Notes under the pieces: generated by a model
Told to the model about the DNA's origin: nothing
What the model saw: the letters and a program-made list of their open reading frames with translations, nothing else
The model's database searches: none
Made by a program: the position numbers and the translations under genes
Part shown: positions 41,009-56,645 of the stretch, piece after piece
Position numbering within the stretch: the first letter of the stretch is position 1
Layout of the letters: every line of letters begins with the position of its first letter
Assembly: GCA_002381615.1 (NCBI GenBank)
Contig: DFWY01000160.1
Span: 1 to 58,947 of the forward strand
Source of the DNA: Polaromonas sp. UBA4122
GTDB taxonomy: Bacteria > Pseudomonadota > Gammaproteobacteria > Burkholderiales > Burkholderiaceae_C
Direction: 5' to 3'
DNA length: 58,947 nucleotides

Positions 41009-41794
41009 ATGACCATGACCGCGATTCCAAGCCAGCGTCCAGCGCAAACGTTGCTCGAAGTGCGTGACCTGCACATCGCTTATGGCAAAGCCGAAGTTGT
41101 GCACGGCATTTCGATGGACGTACGCGCTGGCGAATTTGTAGTCATATTGGGCCGCAATGGCGCTGGAAAGAGCACACTGATGCACGCAATATCCGGGCTC
41201 GTACCCAAGCGTTCTGGTAGCGTGCATTTTGACGGTCGTGACTTGAGCGATGCGGGTCCACGCGACATCGTCAAAGCCGGCATTGTGCAAGTCCTAGAAG
41301 GGCACCGCGTGTTCCACACGTTGTCGGTCGAAGACAACCTCCTGATCGGAACTTACGCTGTCACGCCGCGCGGCGATCGCAGCAAGCTCGATCGCATCTA
41401 CACCATGTTTCCCGAACTGGCTGACCGCCGCCATCAGATGGCGTCGCGCCTTTCAGGTGGGCAGCAGCAGATTCTCGCGGTCGGCCAAGGCGTTATTGGT
41501 GAGCCTCGACTGCTGATACTGGACGAGCCATCGGGTGGCCTTGCGCCAATTGTGATTGACCGAATCCTCGCGGTGGCATCCTCGTTGTGCCAGAGCGGCT
41601 TGGCAATCCTGCTGGTCGAACAGTTGGTCGAGAAGGCATTGCGCAATGCGCACTACGGCTACGTGGTCGAAACGGGGAGGGTTGTCGCGGCAGCCTTCTC
41701 TGGTGAATTGCGCGAGGGCGATTTGCTGCAGCGGGTTTATCTAGGCGGTGCCGCTTCGGTGCCGCTGGCAACTTCACTTGAGGAGCAGGTCTAA
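41009..41794 (+). CDS. LIV-type ABC transporter ATP-binding protein (LivF-like)
   Basis: The 261-residue ATPase has Walker A GRNGAGKS, a canonical signature LSGGQQQILAVG, Walker B LLILDEPSGGLAP and VEQLVEKAL at the switch region. The start is the first of two ATGs separated by one codon, three bases after the LivG-like stop. With an atypical signature in the LivG partner, this subunit may provide the competent site. Its stop overlaps the start of the cyclase gene by one base, tying transport to catabolism. Confidence 0.92.
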   Translation: MTMTAIPSQRPAQTLLEVRDLHIAYGKAEVVHGISMDVRAGEFVVILGRNGAGKSTLMHAISGLVPKRSGSVHFDGRDLSDAGPRDIVKAGIVQVLEGHRVFHTLSVEDNLLIGTYAVTPRGDRSKLDRIYTMFPELADRRHQMASRLSGGQQQILAVGQGVIGEPRLLILDEPSGGLAPIVIDRILAVASSLCQSGLAILLVEQLVEKALRNAHYGYVVETGRVVAAAFSGELREGDLLQRVYLGGAASVPLATSLEEQV

Positions 41795-42849
41795 TGGCAG
41801 TTGAACTCCGCTGGAAACAGCGACCGCCCGGCTCGAACTGGGGCGACTTCGGTCCTAATGACCAATGTGGACGACTCAATTTACTGACTTCGCAAAAAGT
41901 TCAGCAGGGTATCGCTGAGGTGGAAGAAGGTTTGACCTTCTGCCTCAGTCTTCCCTTGGATTACCCTGGCGGAAACGTACTGAATCCGCGCCGCCATCCG
42001 CCGGTACTTCGTCCCACGCTGCGCAATGGTCGGCCAAATATGAACTATCGGCTGTTCACCGACAACATCATGGAGACTGACGTTCTCAGCGATGATTTGG
42101 TCGTGCTACACCTGCAGTATTCGACCCAGTGGGACAGCTTTGCGCATGTGGGGCAGATGTTCGACGCGGATGGCGATGGCGTGCCCGAACCAGTCTACTA
42201 CAACGGTTTTCGGGCCGGATTCGACGTTGTCGGGCCAGAGGATTCTACCGACGCTGGCGTGCCTGCGCCTGGCTCCATGCGCTCTACATCCAAAGCGCAT
42301 GCACTCGGAATAGAAAATATGGCTGAGCGTTGCGTGCAGGGTCGCGGAGTCATGATCGATCTCCATGCGCATCTGGGCAACGGCCGACAGGCGGTTGGCT
42401 ACGACGCACTGATGCGCGTGCTGGAAACCGACCAGGTCAAAGTCGAAGCCGGAGACATGGTGTGTCTTCACACCGGCTTTGCGCAAACGCTTCTGGCAAT
42501 GGGCGGACAGCCTGACCCGGTACGGCTGGACCAGACTGGCGCGGTACTCGATGGCCGAGACGACAGATTGCTGCAGTGGATTACTGACAGCGGGCTTGCG
42601 GTGCTGATCGCAGACAACTATGCCGTCGAAGCCCACCCCGCCAGACGGCGCATGGATTGTTGCGCCACCTTGCCGTTGCACGAGCATTGCCTTTTTAAAC
42701 TTGGAATTCACCTAGGCGAACTCTGGCACCTGACGCCACTGGCGCAATGGCTGCGCAGTCGAGGCCGCAGCAGGTTCCTGCTGACAGCCCCTCCGCTGCG
42801 CTTGCCCGGCGCGGTAGGGTCGCCCGTCACACCCGTGGCGACTGTTTAA
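41794..42849 (+). CDS. Cyclase family protein (kynurenine formamidase-like metal hydrolase)
   Basis: The 351-residue protein belongs to the cyclase family, metal-dependent hydrolases that include bacterial kynurenine formamidase and isatin hydrolase. The core motif is seen as QWDSFAHVG (about 111-119), where the family has HxGTHxDxPxH, so the first histidine is replaced in this long subgroup. YDALMRVLETDQVKVEAGDMVCLHTG and LIADNYAVEAHP are further family segments. The product would open a ring or cleave a C-N or ester-like bond. Its place directly after the transporter suggests it acts early on the imported compound. The precise substrate is unknown. Confidence 0.85.
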   Translation: MAVELRWKQRPPGSNWGDFGPNDQCGRLNLLTSQKVQQGIAEVEEGLTFCLSLPLDYPGGNVLNPRRHPPVLRPTLRNGRPNMNYRLFTDNIMETDVLSDDLVVLHLQYSTQWDSFAHVGQMFDADGDGVPEPVYYNGFRAGFDVVGPEDSTDAGVPAPGSMRSTSKAHALGIENMAERCVQGRGVMIDLHAHLGNGRQAVGYDALMRVLETDQVKVEAGDMVCLHTGFAQTLLAMGGQPDPVRLDQTGAVLDGRDDRLLQWITDSGLAVLIADNYAVEAHPARRRMDCCATLPLHEHCLFKLGIHLGELWHLTPLAQWLRSRGRSRFLLTAPPLRLPGAVGSPVTPVATV

Positions 42850-42857
42850 GAAATATC

Positions 42858-43628
42858 ATGCACCAGATTTCTGACACTAATTCGGCGCAGAAGGTCTGCC
42901 GCATCCTTCGTGTGCTCTCGACACCGAAGCCGCTGCGCCTTGCGGATATTTCAGACGGATCCGGACTCAACAAGGCGACCACGTTGCGCCTGATCGAGAC
43001 CCTGATGTCCGAAGGGTTCATACACCGCGACCCCACGACAAAATGCTATTCGCTTGGCGATGAAGCGCTGGTGCTCGGCATGGCGATGCAAGGTCGCGAC
43101 CATATCCGCGACCGCGTCCGACCTTTTTTGGTGCAGCTGGCTGCGATGTCGGGCGACACGCTACTTTTGTCGACTCGTCATGGGCTCGAATCGGTGTGCG
43201 TGGACCGGGAATTTGGCACATTTCCGATACGTGCAAACTACCTCGACATAGGAAGTCGACGGCCACTTGGCGCAGGCGCCGGCAGTCTGGCGATCTTGGC
43301 ATGGCTTCCAGACGAGGAGGTCGAAACCGTGCTCAACCTTCTGGAGCCGGTTTTCAAGAAGCGTTATCCACGCATCACATGCGAACTGTTGAAAGCAGAA
43401 ATCGCGTTGGCGCGCGAGCGAGGCTATGCGATGTTGCTGGATGTGGTGATCGACCAGATGGGCGGAATCAGCGTGCCAATTCTCGGCAGCGACGGAAAAC
43501 CGATCGGCGCTATCAGCGTGGCGGCCCTTTCCCAACGTATATCGACACGCCTGTCTTTGCTGGTCCCCGCTTTGAAGAATGCGGGACTCCAGCTCTCGGC
43601 GAATTACGCACAACGGGAGGCTGCATGA
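42858..43628 (+). CDS. IclR family transcriptional regulator
   Basis: The 256-residue regulator has an N-terminal winged helix (about residues 8-70) with the recognition region SGLNKATTLRLIETLMSEG. A C-terminal IclR effector domain follows, with SVCVDREFGTFPIRANYLDIGSRRPLG split by a loop, and MGGISVPILGSDGKPIGAISVA. It lies inside the cluster in the same direction, eight bases after the cyclase gene, and the next gene overlaps its stop. It likely controls the cluster in response to an aromatic or carboxylic effector. The inverted repeat at 36950-36971 is one candidate site. The longer upstream frame is not supported. Confidence 0.9.
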   Translation: MHQISDTNSAQKVCRILRVLSTPKPLRLADISDGSGLNKATTLRLIETLMSEGFIHRDPTTKCYSLGDEALVLGMAMQGRDHIRDRVRPFLVQLAAMSGDTLLLSTRHGLESVCVDREFGTFPIRANYLDIGSRRPLGAGAGSLAILAWLPDEEVETVLNLLEPVFKKRYPRITCELLKAEIALARERGYAMLLDVVIDQMGGISVPILGSDGKPIGAISVAALSQRISTRLSLLVPALKNAGLQLSANYAQREAA

Positions 43629-44758
43629 GTTTTATTACGGGCAGCGGTCTGACGCGATATGGCCGCCACGATGGTCGCAGCACGCTCGATTTGATGAGCG
43701 ATGCAGTCGACCTCGCGCTGGTCGATGCCGGTTTGGTGCGCGCTGACATCGACGGCCTGATCTGCGGCTATTCGACGACGCTGCCGCACCTCATGCTCTC
43801 GACCGTGTTTGCTGAGCACTACGGCCTGAGGCCGAGATACGCGCACGCGATTCAGTTGGGCGGTGCAACCGGTTTTGCGCTGGTTATGCTGGCGCACCTG
43901 CTGGTCACCTCGGGCGCGGCAAAGCGTGTGCTGGTTGTCGGCGGTGAAAACCGGATGAGTGGGCAGAGTCGCGATTCGGCCATCCAAGTGCTTGCGCAGG
44001 TCGGTCACCCCGTTTACGAGGTGCCGCTGGGAGCCACCATTCCTGCCTACTACGGGCTTGTGGCCTCACGCTACATGCACGAGTTCGGTTGCACAGAGGC
44101 CGACTTCGCCGAAATGGCGGTGCTGATGCGCCGGCATGCGGCGTTACACGACGGTGCTCAGTTTCGTAGCCCGATCAGCGTCGCCGATGTAATGGCCTCG
44201 CGCCCTATTGCGTCGCCTTTGAAGATGCTCGACTGCTGCCCGGTATCGGACGGCGGCTGCGCGTTCGTAGTGTCGGCCCAGGCCGAGGGGGCGAACCCGG
44301 TACGAATCAGCGCAGCGGCCCAAGTTCACAACGCGCAGCATGTCAGCGCCGCGGTGAGCTTGACCGATTTCGGTGCGGGCGCTTGTGCTGCTCGGGCATT
44401 GGAGGGTGCTGGGCGTGCGCTCGCCGAAGTTGAATATGCTGCTATCTACGATAGCTTCACGATCACGCTGACGATGCTGCTCGAAGAGATCGGCCTCTCA
44501 CCGCGCGGCCGCGCTGGCGTGTTGGCGCGGGAGGGGCATTTCGATGCCGATGGCGCCATGCCTCTGAATCTGCATGGTGGACTCCTCTCGTATGGCCATT
44601 GCGGGGTGGCTGGCGCCATGGCGCACTTAGCCGAAACCCATCTGCAAATGACCGGCCGCGCGGGCGACCGCCAGGCACGCCGGGCAGGGGTGTCGCTGTT
44701 GCATGGTGACGGCGGGGTCTTGTCGTCACATGTCAGTTTAGTGATGGAAGCAGTATGA
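43625..44758 (+). CDS. Thiolase-like protein (lipid-transfer/SCP-x thiolase type)
   Basis: The 377-residue protein has the thiolase fold. The segment that normally holds the nucleophilic cysteine reads QLGGATGFALVMLAH, with no cysteine. The C-terminal NLHGGLLSYGHCGVAGAMAH replaces the usual GHPxGATG. Thiolase-like proteins without the nucleophile act as retro-aldolases on side-chain CoA esters when paired with a DUF35 protein, as in steroid degradation (Ltp2/ChsH2). A DUF35 gene follows with a four-base overlap, so an aldolase role is favoured over a thiolytic one. This is inference from family knowledge. Confidence 0.85.
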   Translation: MSFITGSGLTRYGRHDGRSTLDLMSDAVDLALVDAGLVRADIDGLICGYSTTLPHLMLSTVFAEHYGLRPRYAHAIQLGGATGFALVMLAHLLVTSGAAKRVLVVGGENRMSGQSRDSAIQVLAQVGHPVYEVPLGATIPAYYGLVASRYMHEFGCTEADFAEMAVLMRRHAALHDGAQFRSPISVADVMASRPIASPLKMLDCCPVSDGGCAFVVSAQAEGANPVRISAAAQVHNAQHVSAAVSLTDFGAGACAARALEGAGRALAEVEYAAIYDSFTITLTMLLEEIGLSPRGRAGVLAREGHFDADGAMPLNLHGGLLSYGHCGVAGAMAHLAETHLQMTGRAGDRQARRAGVSLLHGDGGVLSSHVSLVMEAV

Positions 44759-45141
44759 ACCCCAATGCAGCTTCGGTCGAAATGACGCCATCATCCAGCT
44801 GGACGCACGGGGGGGACCGCATAGTCTTCCAGCGGTGCGACGACTGCCAACACACCTGGTATTTCCACCGCGACTTCTGTCCGGCCTGCGGCCACGAAGC
44901 GCCAGCCACATCAACTTCCGCCGGACTCGGCGTCGTGCACGCCAGTACGCTTGTGCAGCGCGCTCCGAGCGACGAGTTTCGAGCCATTGCTCCTTACCGT
45001 ATCGTGCTGGTCGACGTCGCCGAGGGCTTTCGCATGATGGCACACGGGGATGAGTCGCTGGCCATTGGAGACCGGGTGCGGTGCGATGTGCAAAAAGTAG
45101 CTGGCCGACTACTACCTTTTTTCAACAGGGAACCCTCATGA
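44755..45141 (+). CDS. DUF35/OB-fold protein with Zn-ribbon, thiolase partner
   Basis: The 128-residue product has an N-terminal rubredoxin-like zinc ribbon, CDDC at about residues 26-29 and CPAC at about 42-45, followed by an OB-fold (FRAIAPYRIVLVDVAEGFRM). Such DUF35 proteins form complexes with thiolase-like or hydratase-like enzymes and help bind the acyl-CoA. Its start overlaps the thiolase-like gene by four bases, and its stop overlaps the start of the acyl-CoA synthetase gene. A longer alternative frame for the synthetase inside this gene is not real. It should work together with the upstream thiolase-like protein. Confidence 0.88.
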   Translation: MNPNAASVEMTPSSSWTHGGDRIVFQRCDDCQHTWYFHRDFCPACGHEAPATSTSAGLGVVHASTLVQRAPSDEFRAIAPYRIVLVDVAEGFRMMAHGDESLAIGDRVRCDVQKVAGRLLPFFNREPS

Positions 45142-47267
45142 TTCTTGACCCGCGCGACGCACTGCGCCTAGCACTGGCGCCGCGATCCATCGCCGTGATC
45201 GGCGCCTCTGACAATCCCAACAAGATTGGAGGCCGGCCGCTGGCTTATTTGGCCCGTTTCGGCTTTCGCGGCGTAGTCTATCCGATCAATCCGACCCGCA
45301 ACGAAGTGCAAGGCCTTCGCTGCTTCCCGAGTCTGCAGGCGCTGCCAGAGGTGCCCGACGTGGTCGTCGTTGCGGTGGCTGGCGAACTGGCCGTAGCGGC
45401 TGTCGACGAATGCGGCGAGGCTGGCGTGGCGCTGTGCATCTTGATGAGTTCGGGCTTCGGCGAAAGCAACCCTGAAGGCAAGGTGCGCGAGCAGGGGATG
45501 GCGGCGCGCGCGCGGGCCCGCGGCATGCGCATCGTCGGGCCCAACTCGCAGGGCATGGCGAACTTCGGCAACGGCGCGGTGCTCAGCTTTTCGACCATGT
45601 TCACTGAGGTCGCACCAGCCGATGGACCGGTCGGCATCATCAGTCAGAGCGGCGCGATGAGCGTGATTCCGTACGGGTTGCTGCGCGCGCGCGGTGTTGG
45701 CGTGCGTCACTCGCACGCCACTGGCAACGACTGCGACGTGACGGTGTGCGAACTCGCGTCTGTGGTTGCCGAAGACCCGGGTCTCAAGCTGCTGTTGCTG
45801 TACCTCGAAGGCATTCCCGATCCATGGAACCTGGCCGAAACGGCCCGTGTTGCACGCGCGCGCAATTTGCCTATCGTCGCGCTGAAGTCGGGCCGCTCAG
45901 CAGCCGGCCAAGAGGCGGCCAAGTCACATACTGGGGCACTCGCCAGTGAAGACCGAATGGTCGATGCCTTCCTCGCGGATCACGGCATCTGGCGCGCACA
46001 AAGCATGGTCGATCTGGTCGATACCGCCCAGCTTTATCTCAAGGGCTGGAAGCCAAAAGGGCGGCGGCTGGTGGCTATTAGCAATTCTGGTGCGGTGTGC
46101 GTGCTGACGGCCGACGCTGCTAGCGCTGCAAATATGCCGCTCGAGCCGCTTTCGCCCGCTACGCAGGCTGAACTGAAGACCATTCTTCCCGGTTTTGCGA
46201 CCACCACCAATCCGGTCGACATCACCGCTGCGTTGCTCACCAACAGCCGACTGTTCGGTGCGATCTTGCCGCCGATCGCGCGTGACCCGGCGGCTGATGC
46301 CTTCGTCATCGGCATAGCAGTCGCTGGGGCCGGTTACGACGTCGATGCATTCGCGAGCGATACGGCGCGCTTTGCCGCCGAAACCGGCAAGCCGTTGGTC
46401 GTTGCCGCGCCGCAGCAAAGTATCTCCGATCGTTTCAAGGCGCTGGAACTGGAGGTTTACCCGACCGAAGGCGAAGCGGTGCGCGCCCTGGGGCAGTTTC
46501 TGTCGCACGCCGAACTCCAGCAAGCCGCCAAATTTCGCAATGCATCGGTGCCGAACAGGCCGCGCACCGTCGGAGCGTCGACGATGCTAGATGAGGCCGC
46601 CAGTTTGACGCTGCTTGCCGCGTGCGGCGTGGCGGTGGCCCGACATACCCTGTGCCTCTCCGAGGCAGAAGCGCGTGCAGCGTTCGAAGTGCTCGGTGGC
46701 GCGCCCGTGGTCGTCAAGGGCTGCACCGCCGATGCGTCTCACAAATCTGAACTGGGTCTGGTGCGGATCGGCATTCCCGATGCAGCGAGCGTTGCTGCGG
46801 CTTACCGTGAGATGGTGGGTGCGGCCCGCGCCGCCGAAATCACGCTCAGCGGGGTGATCGTCGCCGAGTTGGTGCGCGGGCGGCGTGAGCTGATGATCGG
46901 CGCACGGCTCGACCCGGTGTTCGGCCCGGTGGTGCTGGTTGGCGACGGCGGCAAGTACGTCGAGGCAATGCCCGACGCGCAAGTGTTGCTGCAACCGTTC
47001 GACGTCGGTCAGGTCGAACGCGCGCTCCGCCGACTGCGCATCGCACCGCTGTTAGACGGCGTGCGCGGCGAGCCGGCTCTCGATGTGGCTGCGTTTTGCC
47101 GAAACGTCGTTGCCGTTGGTGAGCTGATGTGCGATGACGCGGCCGGCATTACCCAGCTCGACATCAATCCCGTAATCGTTGGCGCGCGCGGAGAAGGCTG
47201 CATCGCGGTTGATGCCGTGGTCTACCGCGAATCCAATCCGGCAACTTTATCAAAGGAAATCAGATGA
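45138..47267 (+). CDS. ADP-forming acyl-CoA synthetase (acetate--CoA ligase family)
   Basis: The 709-residue enzyme fuses the alpha and beta parts of NDP-forming acyl-CoA synthetases. The N-terminal CoA-binding Rossmann domain has IAVIGASDNPNKIGGRPL. The succinyl-CoA-synthetase-like domain has GIISQSGAMSV and SHTGALASED, which contains the phosphohistidine. The C-terminal ATP-grasp domain (from about 480) has VVVKGCTADASHKSELGLV. The family makes acyl-CoA from acid, ATP and CoA with ADP as product, or the reverse. It probably activates the acid released by the cyclase or a later intermediate. Starts and stops overlap neighbours by four bases. Confidence 0.9.
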   Translation: MILDPRDALRLALAPRSIAVIGASDNPNKIGGRPLAYLARFGFRGVVYPINPTRNEVQGLRCFPSLQALPEVPDVVVVAVAGELAVAAVDECGEAGVALCILMSSGFGESNPEGKVREQGMAARARARGMRIVGPNSQGMANFGNGAVLSFSTMFTEVAPADGPVGIISQSGAMSVIPYGLLRARGVGVRHSHATGNDCDVTVCELASVVAEDPGLKLLLLYLEGIPDPWNLAETARVARARNLPIVALKSGRSAAGQEAAKSHTGALASEDRMVDAFLADHGIWRAQSMVDLVDTAQLYLKGWKPKGRRLVAISNSGAVCVLTADAASAANMPLEPLSPATQAELKTILPGFATTTNPVDITAALLTNSRLFGAILPPIARDPAADAFVIGIAVAGAGYDVDAFASDTARFAAETGKPLVVAAPQQSISDRFKALELEVYPTEGEAVRALGQFLSHAELQQAAKFRNASVPNRPRTVGASTMLDEAASLTLLAACGVAVARHTLCLSEAEARAAFEVLGGAPVVVKGCTADASHKSELGLVRIGIPDAASVAAAYREMVGAARAAEITLSGVIVAELVRGRRELMIGARLDPVFGPVVLVGDGGKYVEAMPDAQVLLQPFDVGQVERALRRLRIAPLLDGVRGEPALDVAAFCRNVVAVGELMCDDAAGITQLDINPVIVGARGEGCIAVDAVVYRESNPATLSKEIR

Positions 47268-48619
47268 CTAAAACGATACGGATCGGCGCTGGCGCCGCTT
47301 GGTGGGGCGACCGAGTCGAGCCAGCTGCCCTGAGCGCCGAACGCGGCAAACTCGATTACCTGTGCTTCGAGACCATGGCAGAGGCCACCGTCTCTGCCGC
47401 CCAAGTGCGAGCGCGCCGCGACCCGAGCTTTGAAGGTTACGACACCTACCTCGACGACCGGATGCGCGCCGTGCTGCCAGCTTGCATGCGGCAAGGTACG
47501 CGCATCATCAGCAATCAAGGCTGGATTAATCCGGACGCCGCAGCCAAACGCATCGTGCACTGGCTGCGGGAACTTGGCCACTCCGGCGTGAAAGTTGCTT
47601 CTGTCAACGGTAGCCTAATCACGGACCGCGTGCTGAAACTCACCGACAGCATCCTAGAAAACGGCAAGCCAACCTCGACGCTGAAGCCGACATTGATCTC
47701 CGCCGAGGCCTACCTCGGCGCCGAGCCGATCGTTGAGGCCTTGAAGGCCGGCGCACAGATCGTCGTCACGGGCCGGGTCGCTGATCCGTCGATCTTCATG
47801 GCACCGATGATGTTTGAGTTCGGCTGGGACCCGCTGGACCACGTGAAGCTTGGCCAGGGCGTGGGTATCGGACACCTATTGGAGTGCGGCGCCCAGGTGA
47901 CAGGCGGCTACTTCTCGGACCCAGGCTTCAAGGACGTGCCTGAGCCGTGGAATTTCGGTTTCCCGATCGCCGAGGTGGATGAAGACGGCAGCGCCGTCAT
48001 CACCAAGGTGGCAGGCACTGGCGGAGCGGTCACGCTGCAGACCGTCAAGGAGCAGATGCTCTACGAAGTGCACGACCCGGCCAACTACCTGACGCCGGAT
48101 GTGGTGGTCGACTTCACCCAGGCCCGCATCGAGCAGATCGGGCCCGACCGGGTGCGCGTTTCAAACATCGGTGGCAAGCCGCGCACGCCGACCTTGAAGG
48201 TGTCGATCGGCTGCACCGAGGGATTCATCGGCGAGGACATGTTCTTCTATGCCGGACCGGGGGCGCTGCGGCGTGCACAGTTGGCGAAGAAGATCCTAGA
48301 AGAGCGCTTCCGCATCGTCGGCCTACAGGCTGAGGAATATCGTGTCGACTTTCTCGGTATCAACGCCATCCACGGCGCGGCAACGCCAGCCGACGCGCCC
48401 GAGCCCTACGAGATCGCAGTGCGCGTGGCGGCACGCACTGCGACCCGAGAAGAGGCTGTGAAGGTCGGGCGCGAGGTCGACGGCATGGCCGTATCCGGCA
48501 TCGCCCACACCGGCAAACGTGTACCGCATGCGGACCGTACGCGTGAGGTTATCGGCGTGTGGTCCGCCCTGGTGCCGCGCGAGCAGGTGCCGGCGTCCAT
48601 CAATTACTTTGAAAGCTGA
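47264..48619 (+). CDS. Acyclic terpene utilization AtuA family protein (DUF1446)
   Basis: The 451-residue protein matches the main domain of AtuA, required for citronellol and geraniol use in Pseudomonas but without an assigned reaction. Landmarks are RIGAGAAWWGDRVEPA at the N-terminus, DYLCFETMAEATVS, ISNQGWINPDAAAKR and VVTGRVADPSIFMAP. In Pseudomonas the gene is longer and carries a C-terminal domain, which here is a separate small gene three bases downstream. No geranyl-CoA carboxylase (AtuC/AtuF) or isohexenylglutaconyl-CoA hydratase gene is in the window, so a role outside the terpene pathway is likely. Confidence 0.88.
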   Translation: MTKTIRIGAGAAWWGDRVEPAALSAERGKLDYLCFETMAEATVSAAQVRARRDPSFEGYDTYLDDRMRAVLPACMRQGTRIISNQGWINPDAAAKRIVHWLRELGHSGVKVASVNGSLITDRVLKLTDSILENGKPTSTLKPTLISAEAYLGAEPIVEALKAGAQIVVTGRVADPSIFMAPMMFEFGWDPLDHVKLGQGVGIGHLLECGAQVTGGYFSDPGFKDVPEPWNFGFPIAEVDEDGSAVITKVAGTGGAVTLQTVKEQMLYEVHDPANYLTPDVVVDFTQARIEQIGPDRVRVSNIGGKPRTPTLKVSIGCTEGFIGEDMFFYAGPGALRRAQLAKKILEERFRIVGLQAEEYRVDFLGINAIHGAATPADAPEPYEIAVRVAARTATREEAVKVGREVDGMAVSGIAHTGKRVPHADRTREVIGVWSALVPREQVPASINYFES

Positions 48620-48621
48620 TC

Positions 48622-48984
48622 ATGAAAGTCAAACTTCAGCATATAGCCCACACTCGTTCGGGCGACAAGGGCGACACCTCGAACATCGCCGTCTTCGCCT
48701 ATACGCCCGAGTTCTACCCGCTACTCAAGGCACAGCTTACGGCCGAACGGTTCAAGGCGTTTTACGCTGGCGCGATCAAGGGAGATGTGATTCGCTACGA
48801 GGTCGACAACCTCGACGCGATGAACTTTGTTTGCCACGGTGCACTCGGCGGAGGCGTGTCGCGCAGCCTTTGCCTCGACAACTATGGGAAGGCGCTGTCT
48901 GCGGCCATTCTCGGATTCGAGATCGAGGTGCCCGACGCCTTGCGGCCACAGTTGCGTGGTTCACACCTGCTGGCCGAGGCTTGA
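48622..48984 (+). CDS. AtuA-related C-terminal domain as a stand-alone protein
   Basis: The 120-residue product corresponds to the C-terminal domain of full-length AtuA proteins: LQHIAHTRSGDKGDTSNIAV at the N-terminus, then NFVCHGALGGGVSRSLCLD and a terminal GSHLL. It starts two bases after the AtuA stop and is likely made in equal amounts and bound to it. The GDKGDTSN loop is the most conserved part of the domain and probably contributes to the active site. The function of the pair is unknown. Confidence 0.88.
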   Translation: MKVKLQHIAHTRSGDKGDTSNIAVFAYTPEFYPLLKAQLTAERFKAFYAGAIKGDVIRYEVDNLDAMNFVCHGALGGGVSRSLCLDNYGKALSAAILGFEIEVPDALRPQLRGSHLLAEA

Positions 48985-49007: not shown

Positions 49008-50096
49008 ATGATTCACAAAAAACATACGATCCTGATCGCTGGCGCAAGTGGCGTGGTTGGAGCGGCAGCAGTCGAACACTTCGCCTCGCTTCCCGATTGG
49101 GAGGTGCTGGCGTTGTCGCGCCGGCCGTCACCATTGCCCGAGGGCGTGCGCCATGTGGCGATCGACCTGACCGACCCGGCTGCTTGCGTCTCGGCTGCTC
49201 AGAGCCTCACCCACGTGACCCACGTGATGTTCGCCGCACTATACGAGTTACCAGAACTCGTAGCCGGGTGGCGCGACCCAAAGCAGATGGCGGTCAACGA
49301 GGCTATGCTTCGCAATCTTCTCGACGCCTTGCAGCCAGCCGCGAAGGGCCTGCGCCACATCACGCTGATGCAGGGAACCAAAGCTTATGGCGGGCACATA
49401 AAGCCCGCGCCGGGGCCGGCCAAGGAGCGGGCGCCGCGTCACCGGCACGACAACTTCTACTGGCTGCAGGAAGACCTTCTGCGTGAACGTCAACCACACG
49501 CGGGCTGGACCTTCACGGTGCTGCGACCGCAACTAATCTTCGGCTATGCAATCGGCAGTCCGATGAATATCGTCGCCGCTATTGGCGCCTATACCGCGGT
49601 ACAGCGCGAACTTGGGCGGTCGTGCACGTTTCCCGGTGGCGGGCGCTACATCAACGCCGCCAGCGACAGCCGGTTGATCGCGCGGGCGGCTGAGTTTGCC
49701 GGCACCCATGAGATATCTGCCAACGAAACCTACAACGTGGTTAACGGCGACGCGCTCGTGTGGCAGGACATCTGGGGTTCAATCGCGCAGCGCTTTGGTA
49801 TGGAAACCAGCGCGGCCGAGTCGCTGGAACTGACGAAGGCTATGCCGGCGTATGAAACCACCTGGGCACGCATCGTCTCGAAGTACGGGCTGCGGTCGCT
49901 CAGCCTGGAAAAAATGATAGGCAGTTCGTGGCAGTTCACAGACCGTGCGCTCGCGCATGGCTTGGCGAATCCGGCCGACTCGGTGCTGAGTCCGATCAAG
50001 CTGCGCCAACACGGCTTTCCCGGCTGCGAAGACACCGAAGACTCGCTGCATTACTGGCTTGAGCGGATGCAAGCGGAACGTTTGCTTCCGCGATGA
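49008..50096 (+). CDS. PRISE-like SDR family reductase (progesterone 5-beta-reductase/iridoid synthase type)
   Basis: The 362-residue oxidoreductase has an N-terminal Rossmann motif ILIAGASGVVGAAAVEHF (residues 7-24). It has the PRISE features LMQGTKAYGGHI and NFYWLQEDLL, the latter matching the NFYYxxED motif with the catalytic tyrosine. VLRPQLIFGYAIGSPMNI is also typical. These enzymes reduce the C=C bond of enones using NADPH. The ATG at 49008 follows a GGAG ribosome binding site; longer frames overlap upstream genes. In this cluster it could reduce an unsaturated ketone or aldehyde intermediate. Confidence 0.85.
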   Translation: MIHKKHTILIAGASGVVGAAAVEHFASLPDWEVLALSRRPSPLPEGVRHVAIDLTDPAACVSAAQSLTHVTHVMFAALYELPELVAGWRDPKQMAVNEAMLRNLLDALQPAAKGLRHITLMQGTKAYGGHIKPAPGPAKERAPRHRHDNFYWLQEDLLRERQPHAGWTFTVLRPQLIFGYAIGSPMNIVAAIGAYTAVQRELGRSCTFPGGGRYINAASDSRLIARAAEFAGTHEISANETYNVVNGDALVWQDIWGSIAQRFGMETSAAESLELTKAMPAYETTWARIVSKYGLRSLSLEKMIGSSWQFTDRALAHGLANPADSVLSPIKLRQHGFPGCEDTEDSLHYWLERMQAERLLPR

Positions 50097-50130: not shown

Positions 50131-51123
50131 ATGATTTCAAATCGTCGACATTGGCTTGCGTCCGTGTGTGCAGGCACTGCCTTCCTGGTGCTGACGGTAG
50201 CGGTAGCCTTGCCAGCGCTGGCCGATTTCCCAGACCGCGCGATTAGGATCGTCGTGCCCTATCCACCCGGTGGCACAACCGACCTGCTTGCACGTGCCAT
50301 CGCGCCGCGCTTGGCCGAGCGACTACACCAGACGGTGGTAATCGATAACCGCGCCGGTGCGGGCGGCGTGATCGGTGCGAAATTGGTAGCCAAGTCAACT
50401 CCCGATGGCTATACGCTGTTGTTCGGTACCATCGCGACCCACGGCATTCTGCCCGTGCTGCTGAAGCCCGCGCCGTACGACGCATTGAAGGATTTTGCGC
50501 CGATCACCTTGGTAGCAAGCACCCCCAACGTCCTGGTCGCCAGTCCTGCGGCGCCTTTTCGCAACGTCGGCGAGTTTCTCGCGTTGGCGCGAGCCAACCC
50601 CGGGACCATCAACTTCGGTTCGACTAGCCTCGGCGGCTCGCCGCACATGAGTGGCGAGCTGTTGAAGACAATGGCGAAGGTCGACCTCGTGCATGTGCCG
50701 TACAAGGGCGGCGGGCCGATGCTGATCGATTTGATTGGAGGACAGATCCAGACGGGATTCGATAACCTGCCTTCGTCAATCAACCATATCCGCGCCGGCA
50801 AGATCCGAGCACTCGCCGTGACAACGGCGAAGCGCTGGCCCGGCGCGCCGGAGATACCGACTCTTGCTGAGGCTGGTGTGCCAGGCTATGAAGCCTCGGC
50901 ATGGTTCGGCCTGCTTGCGCCGGCCGGCACGCCCCAGCCTGTCATTGACCAACTGCAACATCATGTCGCGGCAATCCTAGCCTTGCCCGAGGTCGAAAAG
51001 TTGTTCTTCGAACAGGGTGCCGAACCCTCTGGCAACACGCCAGGAGAATTTCGGAGCCTGATCGCAACCGAACTGCAGAAGTGGACCAAGGTGGTTGCGG
51101 CCACAGGCGTCAAGCTTGAGTGA
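50131..51123 (+). CDS. Tripartite tricarboxylate transporter receptor (Bug/TctC family), copy 1
   Basis: The 330-residue protein has a signal peptide (hydrophobic segment about residues 9-27, cleavage near PALADFP) and the Bug signature: IVVPYPPGGTTDLLARA, VIDNRAGAGGVIGAKLVAK split by the ligand loop, and VPYKGGGPMLIDLIGGQ. Bug receptors bind small carboxylates or amides in the periplasm. No TctA or TctB membrane genes are adjacent, as is common in Alcaligenaceae, so it may feed a transporter elsewhere or act as a sensor. An extended upstream frame overlaps the reductase gene and lacks a leader. Confidence 0.92.
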   Translation: MISNRRHWLASVCAGTAFLVLTVAVALPALADFPDRAIRIVVPYPPGGTTDLLARAIAPRLAERLHQTVVIDNRAGAGGVIGAKLVAKSTPDGYTLLFGTIATHGILPVLLKPAPYDALKDFAPITLVASTPNVLVASPAAPFRNVGEFLALARANPGTINFGSTSLGGSPHMSGELLKTMAKVDLVHVPYKGGGPMLIDLIGGQIQTGFDNLPSSINHIRAGKIRALAVTTAKRWPGAPEIPTLAEAGVPGYEASAWFGLLAPAGTPQPVIDQLQHHVAAILALPEVEKLFFEQGAEPSGNTPGEFRSLIATELQKWTKVVAATGVKLE

Positions 51124-51166: not shown

Positions 51167-52156
51167 ATGACGAAATTCAACGCACTGATTACTGGCATTG
51201 CGGTCGCCATGATGACGCTTACAGCCAGAGCCCAGCCGGCGGGCCAAACCGCGGCGTCGACCTACCCGAACAAGCCGGTTAAGGTGGTGGTACCCTACCC
51301 ACCGGGGGGGCCGACCGACATCGTCGCTCGGGTAGTGTTCCAGCAAGTCTCCGAAGCAACCGGTCAACAGTTCGTCATTGACAACCGTGCCGGTGCTGGC
51401 GGCAACATCGGCGCCGAAGCAGTGGCACACGCGCCCGCGGACGGATATACGCTGCTGGTCGCGACAACCGCGCACGCAATCAACATGTCATTGTTCAGTG
51501 GCCTGCGCTACGACGTGGTCAAAGATTTCGCGCCGGTGTCACTGCTGACTCAGGGCCCGCTAGTACTGGTGGCTACACCCAGTTTCCCGGCGAACAATGT
51601 ACGCGAACTGATCGCGCTGGCCAAGGCCAAGCCAGACACATTGAACTTTGCATCTTCGGGCAACGGACAGTCCACACACCTGTCGGGCGAGCTTTTTAAC
51701 TCGATGTCGGGGGTGAAGCTTTTGCACGTCCCGTACAAGGGCAGTGCCCCGGCACTGACAGATGTTGTATCGGGCCAGGTGCCCTTGATGTTCGACACGA
51801 TGCTATCGGCGATGCCGTTCGTCAATTCCGGCAAGCTCAAGGCGCTGGCCGTCACCAGTTCGCGGCGCTCACCAGTGGCACCCAATGTGCCGACGATTGC
51901 TGAATCAGGGCTGCCCGGTTACGAGGTTTTTGCTTGGAACGGACTATTGGCACCAGCTGGGACGCCAAAGGCCGTGGTTGCCCGACTAAGCGAGGAATTG
52001 AAGAAGGCGATGCAGTTGCCGCAGGTCAAGGAGAAGTTCAGCGCACAAGGTTTTACGGCCACTTGGGATACGCCCGACTATTTTGGAAGGTTCTTGCAGG
52101 AAGAAGTGGAAAAGTGGACGAAAACCGTCAAGGCATCTAAGGCAAAGGTTGATTAA
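51167..52156 (+). CDS. Tripartite tricarboxylate transporter receptor (Bug/TctC family), copy 2
   Basis: The 329-residue second Bug protein follows the first after 43 bases. It has a signal peptide (ITGIAVAMMTLTARA, cleavage near residue 22), VVVPYPPGGPTDIVARV, VIDNRAGAGGNIGAEAVAH split by the ligand loop, and VPYKGSAPALTDVVSGQ. It is clearly homologous to copy 1 but diverged throughout, so this is an old duplication, not a recent one. The two may bind different ligands of the pathway. No membrane partners are present. Confidence 0.92.
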   Translation: MTKFNALITGIAVAMMTLTARAQPAGQTAASTYPNKPVKVVVPYPPGGPTDIVARVVFQQVSEATGQQFVIDNRAGAGGNIGAEAVAHAPADGYTLLVATTAHAINMSLFSGLRYDVVKDFAPVSLLTQGPLVLVATPSFPANNVRELIALAKAKPDTLNFASSGNGQSTHLSGELFNSMSGVKLLHVPYKGSAPALTDVVSGQVPLMFDTMLSAMPFVNSGKLKALAVTSSRRSPVAPNVPTIAESGLPGYEVFAWNGLLAPAGTPKAVVARLSEELKKAMQLPQVKEKFSAQGFTATWDTPDYFGRFLQEEVEKWTKTVKASKAKVD

Positions 52157-52304
52157 ATATGGGCTGGATTCAAAGCATTGCTCCCGATGAGCCGGGGAAG
52201 GGACCTTGGCAGTTGACGCTTTGGTCGAATATGCGCAAGGCCCGGTTTCCATAGCTGGCGGCGCAAAGGAATTAATTTACGCCAGTATTGGAATAGGACA
52301 CGCT

Positions 52305-53477
52305 ATGAACTTCGACTTACCGGGTGAAATCTGCGAACTGGGCGAGCGAACCCGTCGCTTCATTGCTGAGCAAGTGATTCCCCTCGAGAACGATGAACGC
52401 CAGACTTCGCATGGCCCCAGCGGGGAGCTGCGTCAAGAGCTTGTTGCAAGGGCGCGTGCTGCTGGATTGTTGACGCCCCATGCGTCGCGAGAGATGGGGG
52501 GACTGGGACTGAGTCATGTGGCTAAAGCGGTGGTGTTTGAAGAAGCCGGGTATTCGTGGCTTGGCCCCACAGCGCTCAATATTCACGCCCCCGACGAAGG
52601 CAACATTCATCTGATGGAAGAGGTCGCCAGCGCGGCGCAGAAAGAGCGCTGGCTGCGCCCGCAGGTAGAGGGCCGCACGCGTTCGTGCTTTGCGATGACA
52701 GAGCCGGAACCCGGTGCGGGTGCAGATCCCTCGATGATGGCCACCACCGCAATGCGCGACGGTGACGATTACGTTATCAACGGCCTGAAATGTTTTATCA
52801 CCGGCGCAGACGGTGCTGACTACGTCATCGTGATGGCTCGCATGGAAGATGGTTCTGCAACCATGTTCCTGACGGACATGGGCGGCGCCGGCATCACGCT
52901 GGAGCGAAACATGGATGCCATGGACCACTGCTTCACGGGTGGTCATGGCGTGCTGAGTTTCAAAAATGTTCGTGTACCGGCCACGGATGTCTTGGGCGAG
53001 GTGGGGAAAGGTTTCCGTTATGCACAGGTTCGGTTGGCGCCGGCACGATTGACGCACTGCATGCGCTGGCTCGGCCAGGCACGCCGCGCACACGATTTGG
53101 CAGTGAGCTACGCGCGCAGGCGGCAGGCCTTCGGCAAGTCGCTGGCTGAGCACGAAGGCGTGGGCTTTATGCTTGCTGACAACGACATGGACCTGCATAC
53201 CTCGCGCCTGCACATCTGGCACACTGCCTGGCTGCTCGACCAGGGGCAAAAGTGCAATTTCGAGTCCAGCCGAGCCAAGGTCGTGTGCTCCGAAGCGCAA
53301 TGGCGAGTCGTCGACCGTTGCGTGCAGATTCTGGGCGGCCAGGGCGTCACGGCCGAAACCCCGGTGATGCGCATCTTCACCGACATGCGCGCCTTTCGCA
53401 TCTATGACGGCCCAAGCGAGGTTCACCGCTGGAGCATGGCGCGCAAGATAGTCCAGGCGGCGGAGAATGTGGCATGA
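52305..53477 (+). CDS. Acyl-CoA dehydrogenase, ACAD10/11 (LvaC)-like
   Basis: The 390-residue flavoprotein has the ACAD fold, with CFAMTEPEPGAGADPSMM (FAD and substrate binding), LAPARLTHCMRWLGQAR and RRQAFGKSLAEHEGV. Near the C-terminus, where ordinary acyl-CoA dehydrogenases have the catalytic glutamate (YEGT), this protein reads YDGPSEVH, the pattern of ACAD10/11. That group handles 4-phosphorylated acyl-CoA and removes the phosphate, as in levulinate use by Pseudomonas (LvaC). An APH-type kinase and an SDR gene follow in the same operon, which supports that chemistry. The substrate itself is not defined. Confidence 0.85.
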   Translation: MNFDLPGEICELGERTRRFIAEQVIPLENDERQTSHGPSGELRQELVARARAAGLLTPHASREMGGLGLSHVAKAVVFEEAGYSWLGPTALNIHAPDEGNIHLMEEVASAAQKERWLRPQVEGRTRSCFAMTEPEPGAGADPSMMATTAMRDGDDYVINGLKCFITGADGADYVIVMARMEDGSATMFLTDMGGAGITLERNMDAMDHCFTGGHGVLSFKNVRVPATDVLGEVGKGFRYAQVRLAPARLTHCMRWLGQARRAHDLAVSYARRRQAFGKSLAEHEGVGFMLADNDMDLHTSRLHIWHTAWLLDQGQKCNFESSRAKVVCSEAQWRVVDRCVQILGGQGVTAETPVMRIFTDMRAFRIYDGPSEVHRWSMARKIVQAAENVA

Positions 53478-54250
53478 GCAGCAGCCCATTCGACCGTTTC
53501 CGCCTCGATGGGCGAATTGCGCTGGTGACGGGGGCGTCCAGCGGCCTCGGCACCCATTTCGCGCTGTTGCTCGCCAGCGCTGGCGCGCGTGTGGCGGTGG
53601 CAGCGCGCCGGATGGACAAGCTGCAGTCGGTGGTGGATACCATCACGCAGGCTGGCGGTGAAGCGCGTGCGCTGTCGCTTGACGTGACCGATGGTGCCAG
53701 CGTGCGCGGCTGCTTCGACGAACTCGCCAGCTGGGGCGCACCCGATGTGCTGGTGAACAACGCTGGCGTGACCGTGACCCGTCCCGTGCTCGAACAGACC
53801 GAAGCCGACTTCGACAGCGTGATCAACACCAACCTCAAGGGCTGCTGGATGGTGGCCACGGAGGCTGCACGGCGCATGGTGGCAGCCGAATGCGGCGGCA
53901 GTATCATCAATATCGCTTCCATTTTGGGCGAGCGTGTGGCCGGCGGCATCGCGCCGTATGCCATCTCCAAGGCGGGCGTCATACAGACCACCAAGGCCAT
54001 GGCACTGGAGCTGGCGCGCTACCGCATCCGCGTCAACGCACTGCTGCCGGGCTATGTTGTGACCGATCTGAACCGGGAATTCCTCTCCAGCGAGGCCGGG
54101 CAAAAGCTGCGCGCCCGCATCCCGAGCCGCCGCTTCGGAGAAATGACCGACCTGGATGGCCCGCTGCTGCTGATCGCCTCGGATGCGGGCGCAGCCATGT
54201 CCGGCACCACAGTGGCGGTCGATGGTGCACACCTGGTGAGCTCGCTATGA
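53474..54250 (+). CDS. SDR family oxidoreductase
   Basis: The 258-residue short-chain dehydrogenase has the cofactor motif TGASSGLGTHFAL (residues 16-28), NNAG at about 92-95, and the catalytic triad with S in INIASILGE and Y-xxx-K in PYAISKAG. VNALLPGYVVTDLNREF and SGTTVAVDGAH near the end are typical of classical SDRs. Its start overlaps the dehydrogenase gene by four bases and its stop overlaps the kinase gene. By analogy with LvaD, it may reduce a 4-keto acyl-CoA to the 4-hydroxy compound; a 3-hydroxyacyl role is equally possible. Confidence 0.88.
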   Translation: MSSSPFDRFRLDGRIALVTGASSGLGTHFALLLASAGARVAVAARRMDKLQSVVDTITQAGGEARALSLDVTDGASVRGCFDELASWGAPDVLVNNAGVTVTRPVLEQTEADFDSVINTNLKGCWMVATEAARRMVAAECGGSIINIASILGERVAGGIAPYAISKAGVIQTTKAMALELARYRIRVNALLPGYVVTDLNREFLSSEAGQKLRARIPSRRFGEMTDLDGPLLLIASDAGAAMSGTTVAVDGAHLVSSL

Positions 54251-55275
54251 GTGTGCTGCTTCCTCTCGGGGCCCTTGCCCAGTACCTGCGCGCCCAGGGC
54301 CTGTGTGGCAGCGAAGCCATCGCCATTTCTGCGCTCTCCGGCGGGCAGTCCAACCCGACCTTCCGCATCACGGCCGGTACGCGCAGCTATGTGCTGCGCA
54401 AGAAGCCGCCAGGGCAGCTCCTGGCCTCCGCACATGCCATTGACCGCGAATACCGCGTCATGAGCGCCCTGCAAGGCAGCGACGTTCCGGTGCCCCGGAT
54501 GCTCACCTATTGCCAGGATGAACAGATCATTGGCACCCCCTTTTACCTGATGGAGTTTCTGGACGGGCGCGTGCTCGTGGACCAGTCGCTGCCTGGCATG
54601 GAGCCCGCCGAACGCGGCGAGATCTACCGCGAAATGAACCGTGTCATCGCTGCCTTGCACAGCGTGGACTACCAAGCCGTCGGACTGCAAAGCTACGGCA
54701 AGCCCGGCAACTACTTCGCACGCCAGATCGCACGTTGGACCCGCCAGTGCCGCGAGTCAACGCTACCGGTCAACGACGCCATGCAGCGGCTCATAGGCTG
54801 GCTGCCTGAGCACATTCCGGCCGGCGATGAGACGACACTGGTGCATGGTGACTACCGGCTCGACAACCTGGTATTTCACCCCACTGAGCCGCGCGTGATC
54901 GGTGTGCTGGACTGGGAGCTGTCGACGCTCGGGCACCCTCTGGCCGATTTCTCCTACCAGAGCATGAGTTGGCACATTCCGCCGTCCCTCTGGCGCGGAA
55001 TCAATGGGCTGAACCTGGTCTCGCTCGGAATTCCCTGCGAGGCCGAGTACATCGCCCAGTATGCTCAGGCTACCGGTCGCGATCCAGCTGAGCACTTGGA
55101 CTTCTATCTCGCCTACAACCTGTTTCGCATGGCCGCCATCCTGCACGGAATTGCTCAGCGTGCGGCGGACGGCAATGCCGCCGCCGTCGATGCGGTGGAA
55201 ACCGGTCGCAAGGCCGGTCCGCTGGCCGAACTGGGCTGGCAATGTGCACTGCGGCATGACGCTGCTCGAAGCTGA
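54247..55275 (+). CDS. APH-type phosphotransferase (ACAD10/11 kinase-domain or LvaA-like)
   Basis: The 342-residue kinase has the aminoglycoside-phosphotransferase fold: LSGGQSNPTFRI as the glycine-rich region, YVLRKKPPGQLL with the ATP-binding lysine, the catalytic loop LVHGDYRLDNLVFH (HGD and N) and the metal-binding VLDWELSTLGHPLADF. Homologues form the N-terminal domain of ACAD10/11 and the LvaA kinase, which phosphorylate 4-hydroxyacyl-CoA. Adjacency to an ACAD10/11-like gene favours this over antibiotic resistance. Upstream frame extensions lie within the SDR gene. Confidence 0.88.
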   Translation: MSVLLPLGALAQYLRAQGLCGSEAIAISALSGGQSNPTFRITAGTRSYVLRKKPPGQLLASAHAIDREYRVMSALQGSDVPVPRMLTYCQDEQIIGTPFYLMEFLDGRVLVDQSLPGMEPAERGEIYREMNRVIAALHSVDYQAVGLQSYGKPGNYFARQIARWTRQCRESTLPVNDAMQRLIGWLPEHIPAGDETTLVHGDYRLDNLVFHPTEPRVIGVLDWELSTLGHPLADFSYQSMSWHIPPSLWRGINGLNLVSLGIPCEAEYIAQYAQATGRDPAEHLDFYLAYNLFRMAAILHGIAQRAADGNAAAVDAVETGRKAGPLAELGWQCALRHDAARS

Positions 55276-55296
55276 ATCAATCCCTGGAAAGTTTGC

Positions 55297-56004
55297 ATGA
55301 AAAAGATTTATCCCAGCGCCGAAGAGGCGCTTTCCGGACTCGTGAGCGACGGGCAGTTGCTTGCTGTAGGCGGGTTCGGTCTGTGTGGCATTCCGGAGGC
55401 GCTGATTGATGCGCTCATTCACTCGGGAGTGAAGAACCTGACCGTCATTTCGAACAATGCCGGTGTGGACGGTTTCGGCCTTGGTAAGCTGCTGCAAACG
55501 AGGCAAATCCGCAAGATGATCTCCAGTTACGTCGGCGAGAACAAAGAGTTTGAACGCCAGTACTTGGCCGGCGAACTGGAACTGGAGTTCACTCCCCAAG
55601 GCACGCTGGCCGAAAAGCTGCGTGCCGGAGGGGCGGGCATCCCAGCATTCTTCACGAGTACCGGAGTGGGCACCATCGTCGCAGATGGCAAGGAGATGCA
55701 CGACTTCGACGGCAAGACCTATGTGATGGAACGCTCGCTGGTTCCCCAAGTATCCTTGGTCAAAGCGTGGAAGGCTGATCGGGCCGGTAATTTGGTCTTC
55801 CGGCGCACCGCGCGAAATTTCAACCCGGCGGTCGCAATGGCCGGAAAGACAACGGTGGTGGAAGTCGAGGAGATCGTTGACACCGGCAGTCTCGACCCTG
55901 ACGCCATCCACCTGCCGGGCATTTATGTCCACCGCATCGTGCTTAACGCCAACCCGGAAAAGCGCATCGAGCGCCGTACCGTCACCAATCCAACTGGAGC
56001 CTGA
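55297..56004 (+). CDS. 3-oxoacid CoA-transferase subunit A (ScoA-like)
   Basis: The 235-residue alpha subunit of a family I CoA-transferase has [17 protein letters not shown] near the N-terminus, [13 protein letters not shown], a GEN-like loop ([13 protein letters not shown]) and [19 protein letters not shown]. It moves CoA from succinyl-CoA or acetyl-CoA to a keto or hydroxy acid. The partner subunit starts two bases after its stop. Within this cluster it would activate the acid product or recover CoA at the end of the pathway. Confidence 0.92.
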
Positions 56005-56006
56005 CC

Positions 56007-56645
56007 ATGGCCTGGACCCACAACCAGATGGCTGCTCGCGCGGCCCGAGAACTGCAGGATGGCTACTACGTCAACCTTGGCATCGGCCTGCCAACCGGCG
56101 TAGCCAACTTCGTCAACCCCGACATAGAGGTCTGGCTGCAAAGCGAGAACGGCATGTTGGGGATTGGTCCGTATCCCACAGAAGACCAGGTCGACCCCGA
56201 CATCATCAACGCGGGTAAGGAAACCGTCACCATGATCCCCGGCACCAGTATCGTCGGATCGCATGACAGCTTTGCGATGGTCCGTGGAGGCAAAATCGAC
56301 TTGTCGATCCTGGGCGCGCTTCAGGTCAGCGAAAAAGGTGACCTGGCCAACTGGATGATTCCTGGAAAAATGGTCAAGGGCATGGGCGGTGCGATGGATT
56401 TGGTGGCTGGCGTACGCACCGTTATTGTGCTGATGGAGCATGTGGCGCGCAGAAAGGATGGCGGCTGGGACCTGAAGATCCTTCCACAATGCACCTTGCC
56501 GCTGACCGGCGTAGGGGTGGTTGATCGCATCATCACGGATCTCGCCGTGATGGAAGTGACACCTCATGGCCTAAAGCTTGTGGAACTGGCCGACGGCGTG
56601 AGTCGTGAGGAGGTCCAGGGCAAGACTGGCGTGGCACTGCTTTAA
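56007..56645 (+). CDS. 3-oxoacid CoA-transferase subunit B (ScoB-like)
   Basis: The 212-residue beta subunit has [16 protein letters not shown] and the catalytic glutamate in [12 protein letters not shown]. The family segments [28 protein letters not shown] (split here by a turn) and [18 protein letters not shown] follow. It forms the active heteromer with the ScoA-like protein directly upstream and is the last gene of the cluster. Downstream there is about a kilobase of mobile-element remnants. Confidence 0.92.

Follow-up and report, generated by a model that had tools for sequence, protein, structure and literature searches.

A recurrent set of core enzymes points to a candidate catabolic operon for oxygenated organic acids in Polaromonas sp. 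UBA4122

A contig of Polaromonas sp. UBA4122 (DFWY01000160.1, 58,947 nucleotides, analysed whole and called the window here) carries 20 genes in a row, all on the + strand at 37093-56645 (starts refined), several of them for coenzyme A (CoA)-dependent enzymes; which compound would such a set of enzymes consume? The initial annotation had described a long co-directional catabolic cluster with no recognised pathway, and that observation is confirmed: every piece it named is present, in place and on the + strand, and Pfam and NCBIfam scans, which covered 16 of the 20 genes, agree with its calls, LivH, LivM, LivG and LivF having been named by eye. The run is as tight as had been described, with junctions of -4 to +43 base pairs (bp) at 18 of 19 places (-4 eight times, 2 twice, and -1, 3, 8, 21, 23, 27, 34 and 43 bp once each); the sole larger gap, of 148 bp, lies upstream of an acyl-CoA dehydrogenase gene. 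Because the LivKHMGF transporter genes (37093-41794) are continuous with the following cyclase-type hydrolase gene, which LivF overlaps by 1 bp, the run begins upstream of the interval first delimited, which opened at 41794.

Seven enzymes make up what we call the core: a PF04199 hydrolase (Cyc), a thiolase-fold protein (Thio), a DUF35 protein, an ADP-forming acyl-CoA synthetase (ACS), an AtuA-family protein, its small partner and a PRISE-type protein. The tail comprises an ACAD10/11-like acyl-CoA dehydrogenase (ACAD), a short-chain dehydrogenase (SDR), a kinase and subunits A and B of a CoA-transferase. We propose, with a probability of roughly one half, that the core, an IclR regulator and LIV and TctC uptake proteins form an operon for the breakdown of an organic acid that is oxygenated and probably methyl-branched, or of its lactone or ester, acting by the steps set out below. 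Literature searches of partial coverage, with few subscription journals, found no paper describing this gene set, in line with the earlier statement that it matches no described pathway.

The gene run is not a chance assembly, because the core set recurs elsewhere. An AtuA scan of a species-level genome collection matched 248 stretches, of which 234 were confirmed, and the best 80 loci were analysed; tblastn of the 20 window proteins on the loci was used for all counts (gene callers overlook some genes). Of the 80 loci, 27 hold six or more of the seven core enzymes and 14 hold all seven, counts that are conditional on AtuA, by which the loci were retrieved, and in 23 of the 27 the core matches all lie on one strand; the core pieces first noted in the window thus do occur together elsewhere. 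Thio and DUF35 are each present in 38 of the 80 loci, ACS in 34, Cyc in 30 and PRISE in 27, at identity floors of 55% for Cyc, 45% for IclR, 50% for Thio, 35% for DUF35, 48% for ACS, 70% for AtuA, 60% for the AtuA partner, PRISE and the Liv proteins, 50% for TctC and 55% for the tail; diverged copies below the floor are scored absent (PRISE at 36-37% in locus L109 and 44% in L121, for example), and absences are weak in the 30 loci shorter than 19 kb.

Gene order varies by lineage and the enzyme set is kept. The order Cyc-IclR-Thio-DUF35-ACS-AtuA-partner-PRISE is common to the window, L043 (DUF35 at 68% identity and the other six core enzymes at 82-95% by tblastn) and L048 from Ideonella sp. 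A 288 (54-87% for the seven); L053 from Sheuella amnicola, which like L048 has all seven core enzymes and whose sequence cluster comprises 11 loci, reads Cyc-IclR-AtuA-partner-PRISE-Thio-DUF35-ACS. The type of uptake varies too, being LIV in many loci, SBP_bac_5 in L053 and DctP in L121, and among the AtuA loci TctC receptor 1 often directly follows AtuA and its partner or PRISE.

Searches with Thio are independent of retrieval through AtuA. Among 250 genomes of the family, Thio at 55% identity or more occurs in 15, the window's included (some share a genus, three in g19 and two in g70); with kinship ignored, PRISE at 46% or more occurs in 10, eight of which are also Thio genomes, and AtuA at 80% or more in six, all with Thio. 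In loci from 12 of the 14 other Thio genomes (L142-L153), DUF35 is present and adjoins Thio in 12 of 12, ACS is found in 8 and AtuA in 4, some loci ending at contig ends; the loci of the last two genomes, L022 and L023, contain Thio, DUF35, IclR and PRISE, and L022 also ACS, Cyc and the tail trio. Across the phylum, Thio at E<=1e-95 occurs in 12 of 398 genomes, again including the window's. One of these 12, L172 from another family of the phylum, carries Cyc (62% identity), PRISE (56%), Thio (62%), DUF35 (38%) and ACS (55%) in the order Cyc-PRISE-Thio-DUF35-ACS on a single strand; its neighbours are LIV-type transporter genes, a MaoC hydratase gene and one for an acyl-CoA dehydrogenase, and tblastn gives no AtuA match in its 20-kb stretch.

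Other groupings of these families were also seen. A second cluster type, IclR-Thio-DUF35-TctC, is present in 10 of the 11 loci L143-L153 (ACS in 8 and AtuA in 4 of the 11), and similar clusters occur in L098, L101, L107, L113 and L119. PRISE and Cyc relatives stand near each other without the rest of the core in L024-L028, and one genus of large genomes (L162, L164-L171) has the Thio/DUF35 pair without ACS. Cyc relatives at E<=1e-60 are found in 12 of 18 chosen genomes, in several of them away from Thio.

Conserved motifs suggest what the core enzymes may do. Cyc is predicted to be a metal-dependent ester or lactone hydrolase: at E<=0.1 its sequence matches a single PDB entry, 5ibz, which we take to be MGS0169, and its QxxxQxDxxxH motif is kept in 39 of 39 aligned sequences. 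MGS0169 is described as a metal-dependent esterase with this motif that favours an ester over isatin by three orders of magnitude or more; trans-dienelactone hydrolase is described as having the same motif. The PRISE protein can be aligned almost from end to end with progesterone 5-beta-reductase (E 4e-46), and its Lys125 and Tyr151 are present in 49 of 49 aligned sequences. Tyr and Lys are catalytic in PRISE-type enzymes and activity extends to small enones, according to PMC11643720; homology and catalytic residues therefore support an enone-reductase type, and with it the enone reduction that the initial annotation had proposed.

Thio together with DUF35 is a predicted retro-aldolase, in keeping with the retro-aldol step first suggested, having no thiolase nucleophile and a YD-x-F motif. 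Gly80 occupies the place of the nucleophilic Cys of 7yvy and 6esq (titled acetyl-CoA acetyltransferase and acetoacetyl-CoA thiolase) and is invariant in all 53 aligned sequences, for which reason a Claisen thiolase role was rejected as first choice; the HD-x-F of those two enzymes reads YDSF in Thio, with Y275 in all 53. H325 is also invariant, C326 is Cys in 50 of 53, and the position of the catalytic Cys304 of Sal holds Ser in 51 sequences and Ala in the other 2. Relatives of Thio include 6ok1, whose Y294-D-H-F fits the numbering of Ltp2 in PMC12329534, where Ltp2 (YDHF) and Sal (YDCY) are described as thiolase-fold aldolases with DUF35 partners and Tyr as the base. The four Cys of DUF35 are kept in 24 of 24 aligned sequences, and His264 of ACS in 39 of 39.

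AtuA matched one solved-structure sequence, 9erq (AtuA family protein/citramalate lyase subunit A), at E 2.6e-4 with a single sequence and E 2.5e-10 with a 28-sequence profile. Its AlphaFold2 model (predicted local distance difference test, pLDDT, 90; predicted template modelling score, pTM, 0.88) has as top Foldseek match 9evf, a citramalate lyase-ADP-pyruvate complex (E 8e-26, TM 0.69), the runner-up standing at E 4e-4. R171, D174, E207, C208, Y267, E268 and K312 are present in 103 of 103 aligned relatives, and a profile alignment gives AtuA and citramalate lyase the common motifs GR..DP, EC.A, YE..DP and LK. Because of this fold match and the invariant motifs common to the lyase, our best guess is that AtuA splits a tertiary beta-hydroxy acid much as the lyase splits citramalate, perhaps using ATP. 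The same literature searches, of partial coverage, brought up no paper on the 9evf lyase. The acetate-releasing step proposed for the Atu pathway is chemically like a citramalate-type cleavage. The partner has no PDB match at E<=1. The initial annotation had pointed to AtuA with a separate small partner, and the pair is indeed present, but it is ordinary for the family, since the two adjoin, fused or separate, in 20 of 20 distant loci. In enterobacteria a DUF1446 gene stands beside methylaspartate ammonia-lyase, according to PMC4682846.

In the operon that we propose, uptake would come first; Cyc, using a divalent metal, would then open a lactone or ester, PRISE would saturate the C=C bond of the enone so formed, and ACS would attach CoA using ATP. 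Dehydrogenation and hydration would follow, presumably by enzymes encoded elsewhere in the genome. As first stated, no enoyl-CoA hydratase (ECH), dehydrogenase of the 3-hydroxyacyl-CoA type or biotin carboxylase is found in the 16 of 20 genes scanned, at the limits used, but the hydratase absence does not extend to relatives of the core, beside which MaoC and ECH genes stand in L113 and a MaoC gene in L172. Thio/DUF35 would next split a beta-hydroxyacyl-CoA by a retro-aldol reaction, releasing a short acyl-CoA and a carbonyl compound, and AtuA with its partner would cleave a tertiary beta-hydroxy acid in the manner of citramalate lyase, possibly at the expense of ATP. The levulinate-type tail (SDR, kinase and ACAD10/11-like dehydrogenase) and the 3-oxoacid CoA-transferase would convert 4-oxo or 4-hydroxy products to 2-enoyl-CoA. 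Families, motifs and the recurrence of the core are read directly from sequence, and the AtuA fold from its model; from these we infer the order and direction of the steps, the kind of substrate and the cooperation of tail and core. The terpenoid-derived or cyclic substrate envisaged at the outset might be one such compound, by inference only, and the earlier interpretation as a whole is partly supported.

A bolder version, which we think rather unlikely, is a widely distributed new pathway for unsaturated lactones (butenolide or enol-lactone type) that originate in plants or in terpenoids after photo-oxidation. Cyc would open the ring, a bacterial PRISE would yield a 4-oxo acid and CoA activation would follow; two retro-aldol lyases would then act, Thio/DUF35 on a thioester and an ATP-using AtuA on a free tertiary hydroxy acid, joined in this window to a levulinate-type 4-hydroxyacyl-CoA route.

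Several observations weigh against the proposed operon. The core is not uniform: in 32 of the 80 loci AtuA and its partner are the only two of the seven enzymes present, and Thio/DUF35 occurs without AtuA in 8 of the 12 loci L142-L153 and in L162-L172; since both kinds of locus occur, AtuA may belong to a different step or act on a different substrate. In ten loci of family f48 (L162-L171), where Thio is at 67-68% and DUF35 at 47-54% identity, Cyc and PRISE matches are absent from 10 of 10 and ACS matches from 9 of 10, and in L162 a CaiB-type CoA-transferase stands just before Thio/DUF35 in place of ACS. The best PDB match of Thio, 4u4e, is titled Thiolase, and it too has no aligned Cys and reads YDSF; Tyr344 of Ltp2, the second catalytic residue there, falls in an alignment gap, the nearby Y323 of Thio being Tyr in 28, Phe in 23 and Cys in 2 of 53. 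The match of AtuA to 9evf is remote, with a root-mean-square deviation of 7.2 over 486 columns at 17% identity. As regards the tail, L043, the closest syntenic genome, has no ACAD at the limit used, and 17 of the 27 core genomes have a close ACAD somewhere, as do 7 of the 16 AtuA-only genomes that served as controls, drawn from the 32 AtuA-only loci (one-sided Fisher p 0.18, relatedness ignored). Seven further Thio loci in the same set have ACAD in five; this set and the 250 family genomes appear to overlap (identical coordinates for G293 and G231 and for G295 and G136, apparently the same genomes), and the two counts are not independent.

The tail raises the strongest rival. The SDR would correspond to the 4-oxo reductase LvaD, and it could act on a hydroxyacyl-CoA. 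The kinase matches the kinase domain of ACAD11 at E 6e-78, and the dehydrogenase, which matches ACAD11 among many acyl-CoA dehydrogenases, has the Arg, HCMR and Asp whose counterparts are special to ACAD10/11 and LvaC in PMC12440821; a role of the two in 4-hydroxyacyl-CoA metabolism is well supported at the sequence level, in agreement with the 4-hydroxy removal first proposed. Such a tail could be an independent operon for levulinate-like 4-hydroxy or 4-oxo acids that merely follows the conserved core operon, two pathways side by side, and we regard this as a real, if tentative, possibility. In the fetched flanks of the 80 AtuA loci ACAD and kinase are found beside the core in none, and SDR and each CoA-transferase subunit in one; the only large gap of the run precedes the tail; ACAD is not significantly enriched in the genome comparison above; and around seven close ACADs (L155-L161) an ACAD-SDR-kinase trio stands on its own in three loci (L159-L161), the other four having no kinase or close SDR. 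Pointing the opposite way, L022 has IclR-Thio-DUF35-TctC-ACS-ACAD-SDR-kinase in one row, with PRISE and Cyc on the opposite strand and no AtuA; L154 has TctC-ACS-ACAD, without SDR or kinase matches; and a close ACAD is present in 11 of the 15 Thio genomes versus 30 of the 250 family genomes overall (kinship ignored). Of the single cluster first described, the core thus recurs, but membership of the tail in a conserved unit is unsupported by the 80 neighbourhoods or by the comparison of 27 with 16 genomes.

A second alternative, breakdown of a cyclic amide or formamide of the isatin or kynurenine type with Cyc as an amidohydrolase, appears decidedly unlikely. Cyc does share the family PF04199 with such enzymes, and an amidase and M20 peptidases are among the upstream genes of the window, but its motif is the Gln-Gln variant, as in the esterase and the dienelactone hydrolase, rather than His-His, and we lowered the amidohydrolase assignment for this reason. 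That the run is a variant of the acyclic-terpene (Atu) pathway for citronellol- or geraniol-type acids is very improbable: an AtuA-family protein is present, but such proteins are common (at E<=1e-70, in 99 of the 250 genomes above), and the biotin-dependent carboxylase (geranyl-CoA carboxylase) and enoyl-CoA hydratase that the Atu route needs are not among the 16 genes scanned, the rest being transporters by eye.

The proposed operon offers testable roles for three poorly assigned families, namely AtuA with its partner, bacterial PRISE proteins and non-thiolase DUF35 pairs, and its core gene set can be tracked across Burkholderiales genomes; if the substrate is found, it would be a degradation route for a class of natural organic acids.

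Table 1 Features of the gene run and its flanking repeats; locus counts refer to the 80 AtuA loci.
Feature	Coordinates	Strand	Basis and remarks
Perfect 50-bp direct repeat, left copy	36477..36526	none	Flanks gene block
LIV-type periplasmic binding protein (Peripla_BP_6)	37093..38274	+	Domain scan; relatives at >=60% identity in 21/80 loci
LivH-type permease	38302..39162	+	By eye; 25/80 loci
LivM-type permease	39159..40172	+	By eye; 26/80 loci
LivG-type ATPase	40169..41005	+	By eye; 26/80 loci
LivF-type ATPase	41009..41794	+	By eye; 24/80 loci
Cyc, PF04199 hydrolase	41794..42849	+	Motif Q108, Q112, D114, H118; predicted metal-dependent ester/lactone hydrolase
IclR-family regulator	42858..43628	+	Domain scans; 22/80 loci
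Thio, thiolase-fold protein	43625..44758	+	G80 replaces nucleophilic Cys, Y275-D-S-F; predicted retro-aldolase
DUF35/ChsH2-type Zn-ribbon OB protein	44755..45141	+	Adjoins Thio; C28, C31, C42, C45
ACS, ADP-forming acyl-CoA synthetase	45138..47267	+	Domain scans; His264
AtuA-family protein (PF07287), citramalate-lyase subunit A fold	47264..48619	+	Domain scan, structure model
AtuA ferredoxin-like partner (PF23544)	48622..48984	+	Domain scan; 79/80 loci
PRISE-type 1,4-enone reductase (PF22917)	49008..50096	+	K125, Y151 conserved
TctC/Bug receptor 1	50131..51123	+	Domain scan; 49/80 loci
TctC/Bug receptor 2	51167..52156	+	Domain scan; 17/80 loci
ACAD10/11/LvaC-like dehydrogenase	52305..53477	+	R243, H251-C-M-R254, D368; tail, outside conserved core
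Short-chain dehydrogenase (SDR)	53474..54250	+	Domain scan; tail
APH-fold kinase, like ACAD11 kinase domain	54247..55275	+	Domain scan, PDB match; tail
3-oxoacid CoA-transferase subunit A	55297..56004	+	Domain scans; tail
3-oxoacid CoA-transferase subunit B	56007..56645	+	Domain scans; tail
Perfect 50-bp direct repeat, right copy	56958..57007	none	Flanks gene block

The two copies of the 50-bp direct repeat, the only ones in the whole genome, lie 20481 bp apart and bracket the 20-gene block, whose insertion they could mark; no integrase gene was seen between them. The G+C content is 0.62 in core and tail versus 0.56 and 0.52 in the flanks, and the two genomes of the same genus in the set of 250 lack PRISE, Thio and a close ACAD at the limits used; together with the repeat, this contrast and these absences are compatible with acquisition of the block in one piece in this lineage. 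A stretch at about 57156-57200 resembles by eye the 3' half of tRNA-Met (CAT, T-arm, CCA), followed by repeats, and is a possible attachment-site remnant; ARAGORN calls no tRNA there. Scans of the window with Rfam and for tRNA genes returned no hits, and a plasmid search gave partial matches only, covering at most 11% of the query. Farther along, 57590-57700 holds a remnant resembling by eye the start of an IS3-type orfA, and 57993-58788 two small adjacent open reading frames that look toxin-antitoxin-like by eye, a Pfam scan of the second being negative. Upstream, at 4977-34640, the ten proteins scanned include an amidase, two M20 peptidases, an M81/MlrC-type peptidase, SBP_bac_5 and LIV-type receptors and a DUF1028 protein, many of them for uptake and for amide or peptide hydrolysis.

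How does the set compare with known systems? Thio and DUF35 resemble Ltp2-ChsH2 and Sal-Shy in the thiolase fold, the adjoining DUF35 gene, the missing aligned nucleophile, the YD-x-F of Thio and the C-x2-C-x10-C-x2-C spacing of DUF35, as given in PMC12329534; they differ in reading YDSF rather than YDHF (Ltp2) or YDCY (Sal), in a DUF35 without a fused hydratase and in a run in which no steroid genes are recognised. AtuA is like citramalate lyase subunit A (9erq, 9evf) in its model fold and several invariant residues and differs from it in identity, at 17% over the structural alignment. Cyc shares QxxxQxDxxxH within PF04199 with MGS0169 and the trans-dienelactone hydrolase of Pseudomonas reinekei, the latter by the description of its motif, its sequence not having been aligned with Cyc. 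The tail trio, an ACAD with Arg, HCMR and Asp, an APH kinase and an SDR, is like the lva operon and ACAD10/11, but the CoA ligase here is ADP-forming in contrast to the levulinyl-CoA ligase LvaE, the tail genes are contiguous and hence include no LvaB, and the trio is not conserved with the core. With the Atu pathway the run has an AtuA-family protein in common; it has no carboxylase or hydratase genes among those scanned, and the gene set is otherwise unlike that of Atu. The proposed route resembles parts of the dienelactone/maleylacetate route, of steroid side-chain removal and of citramalate cleavage, and is classed under none of them.

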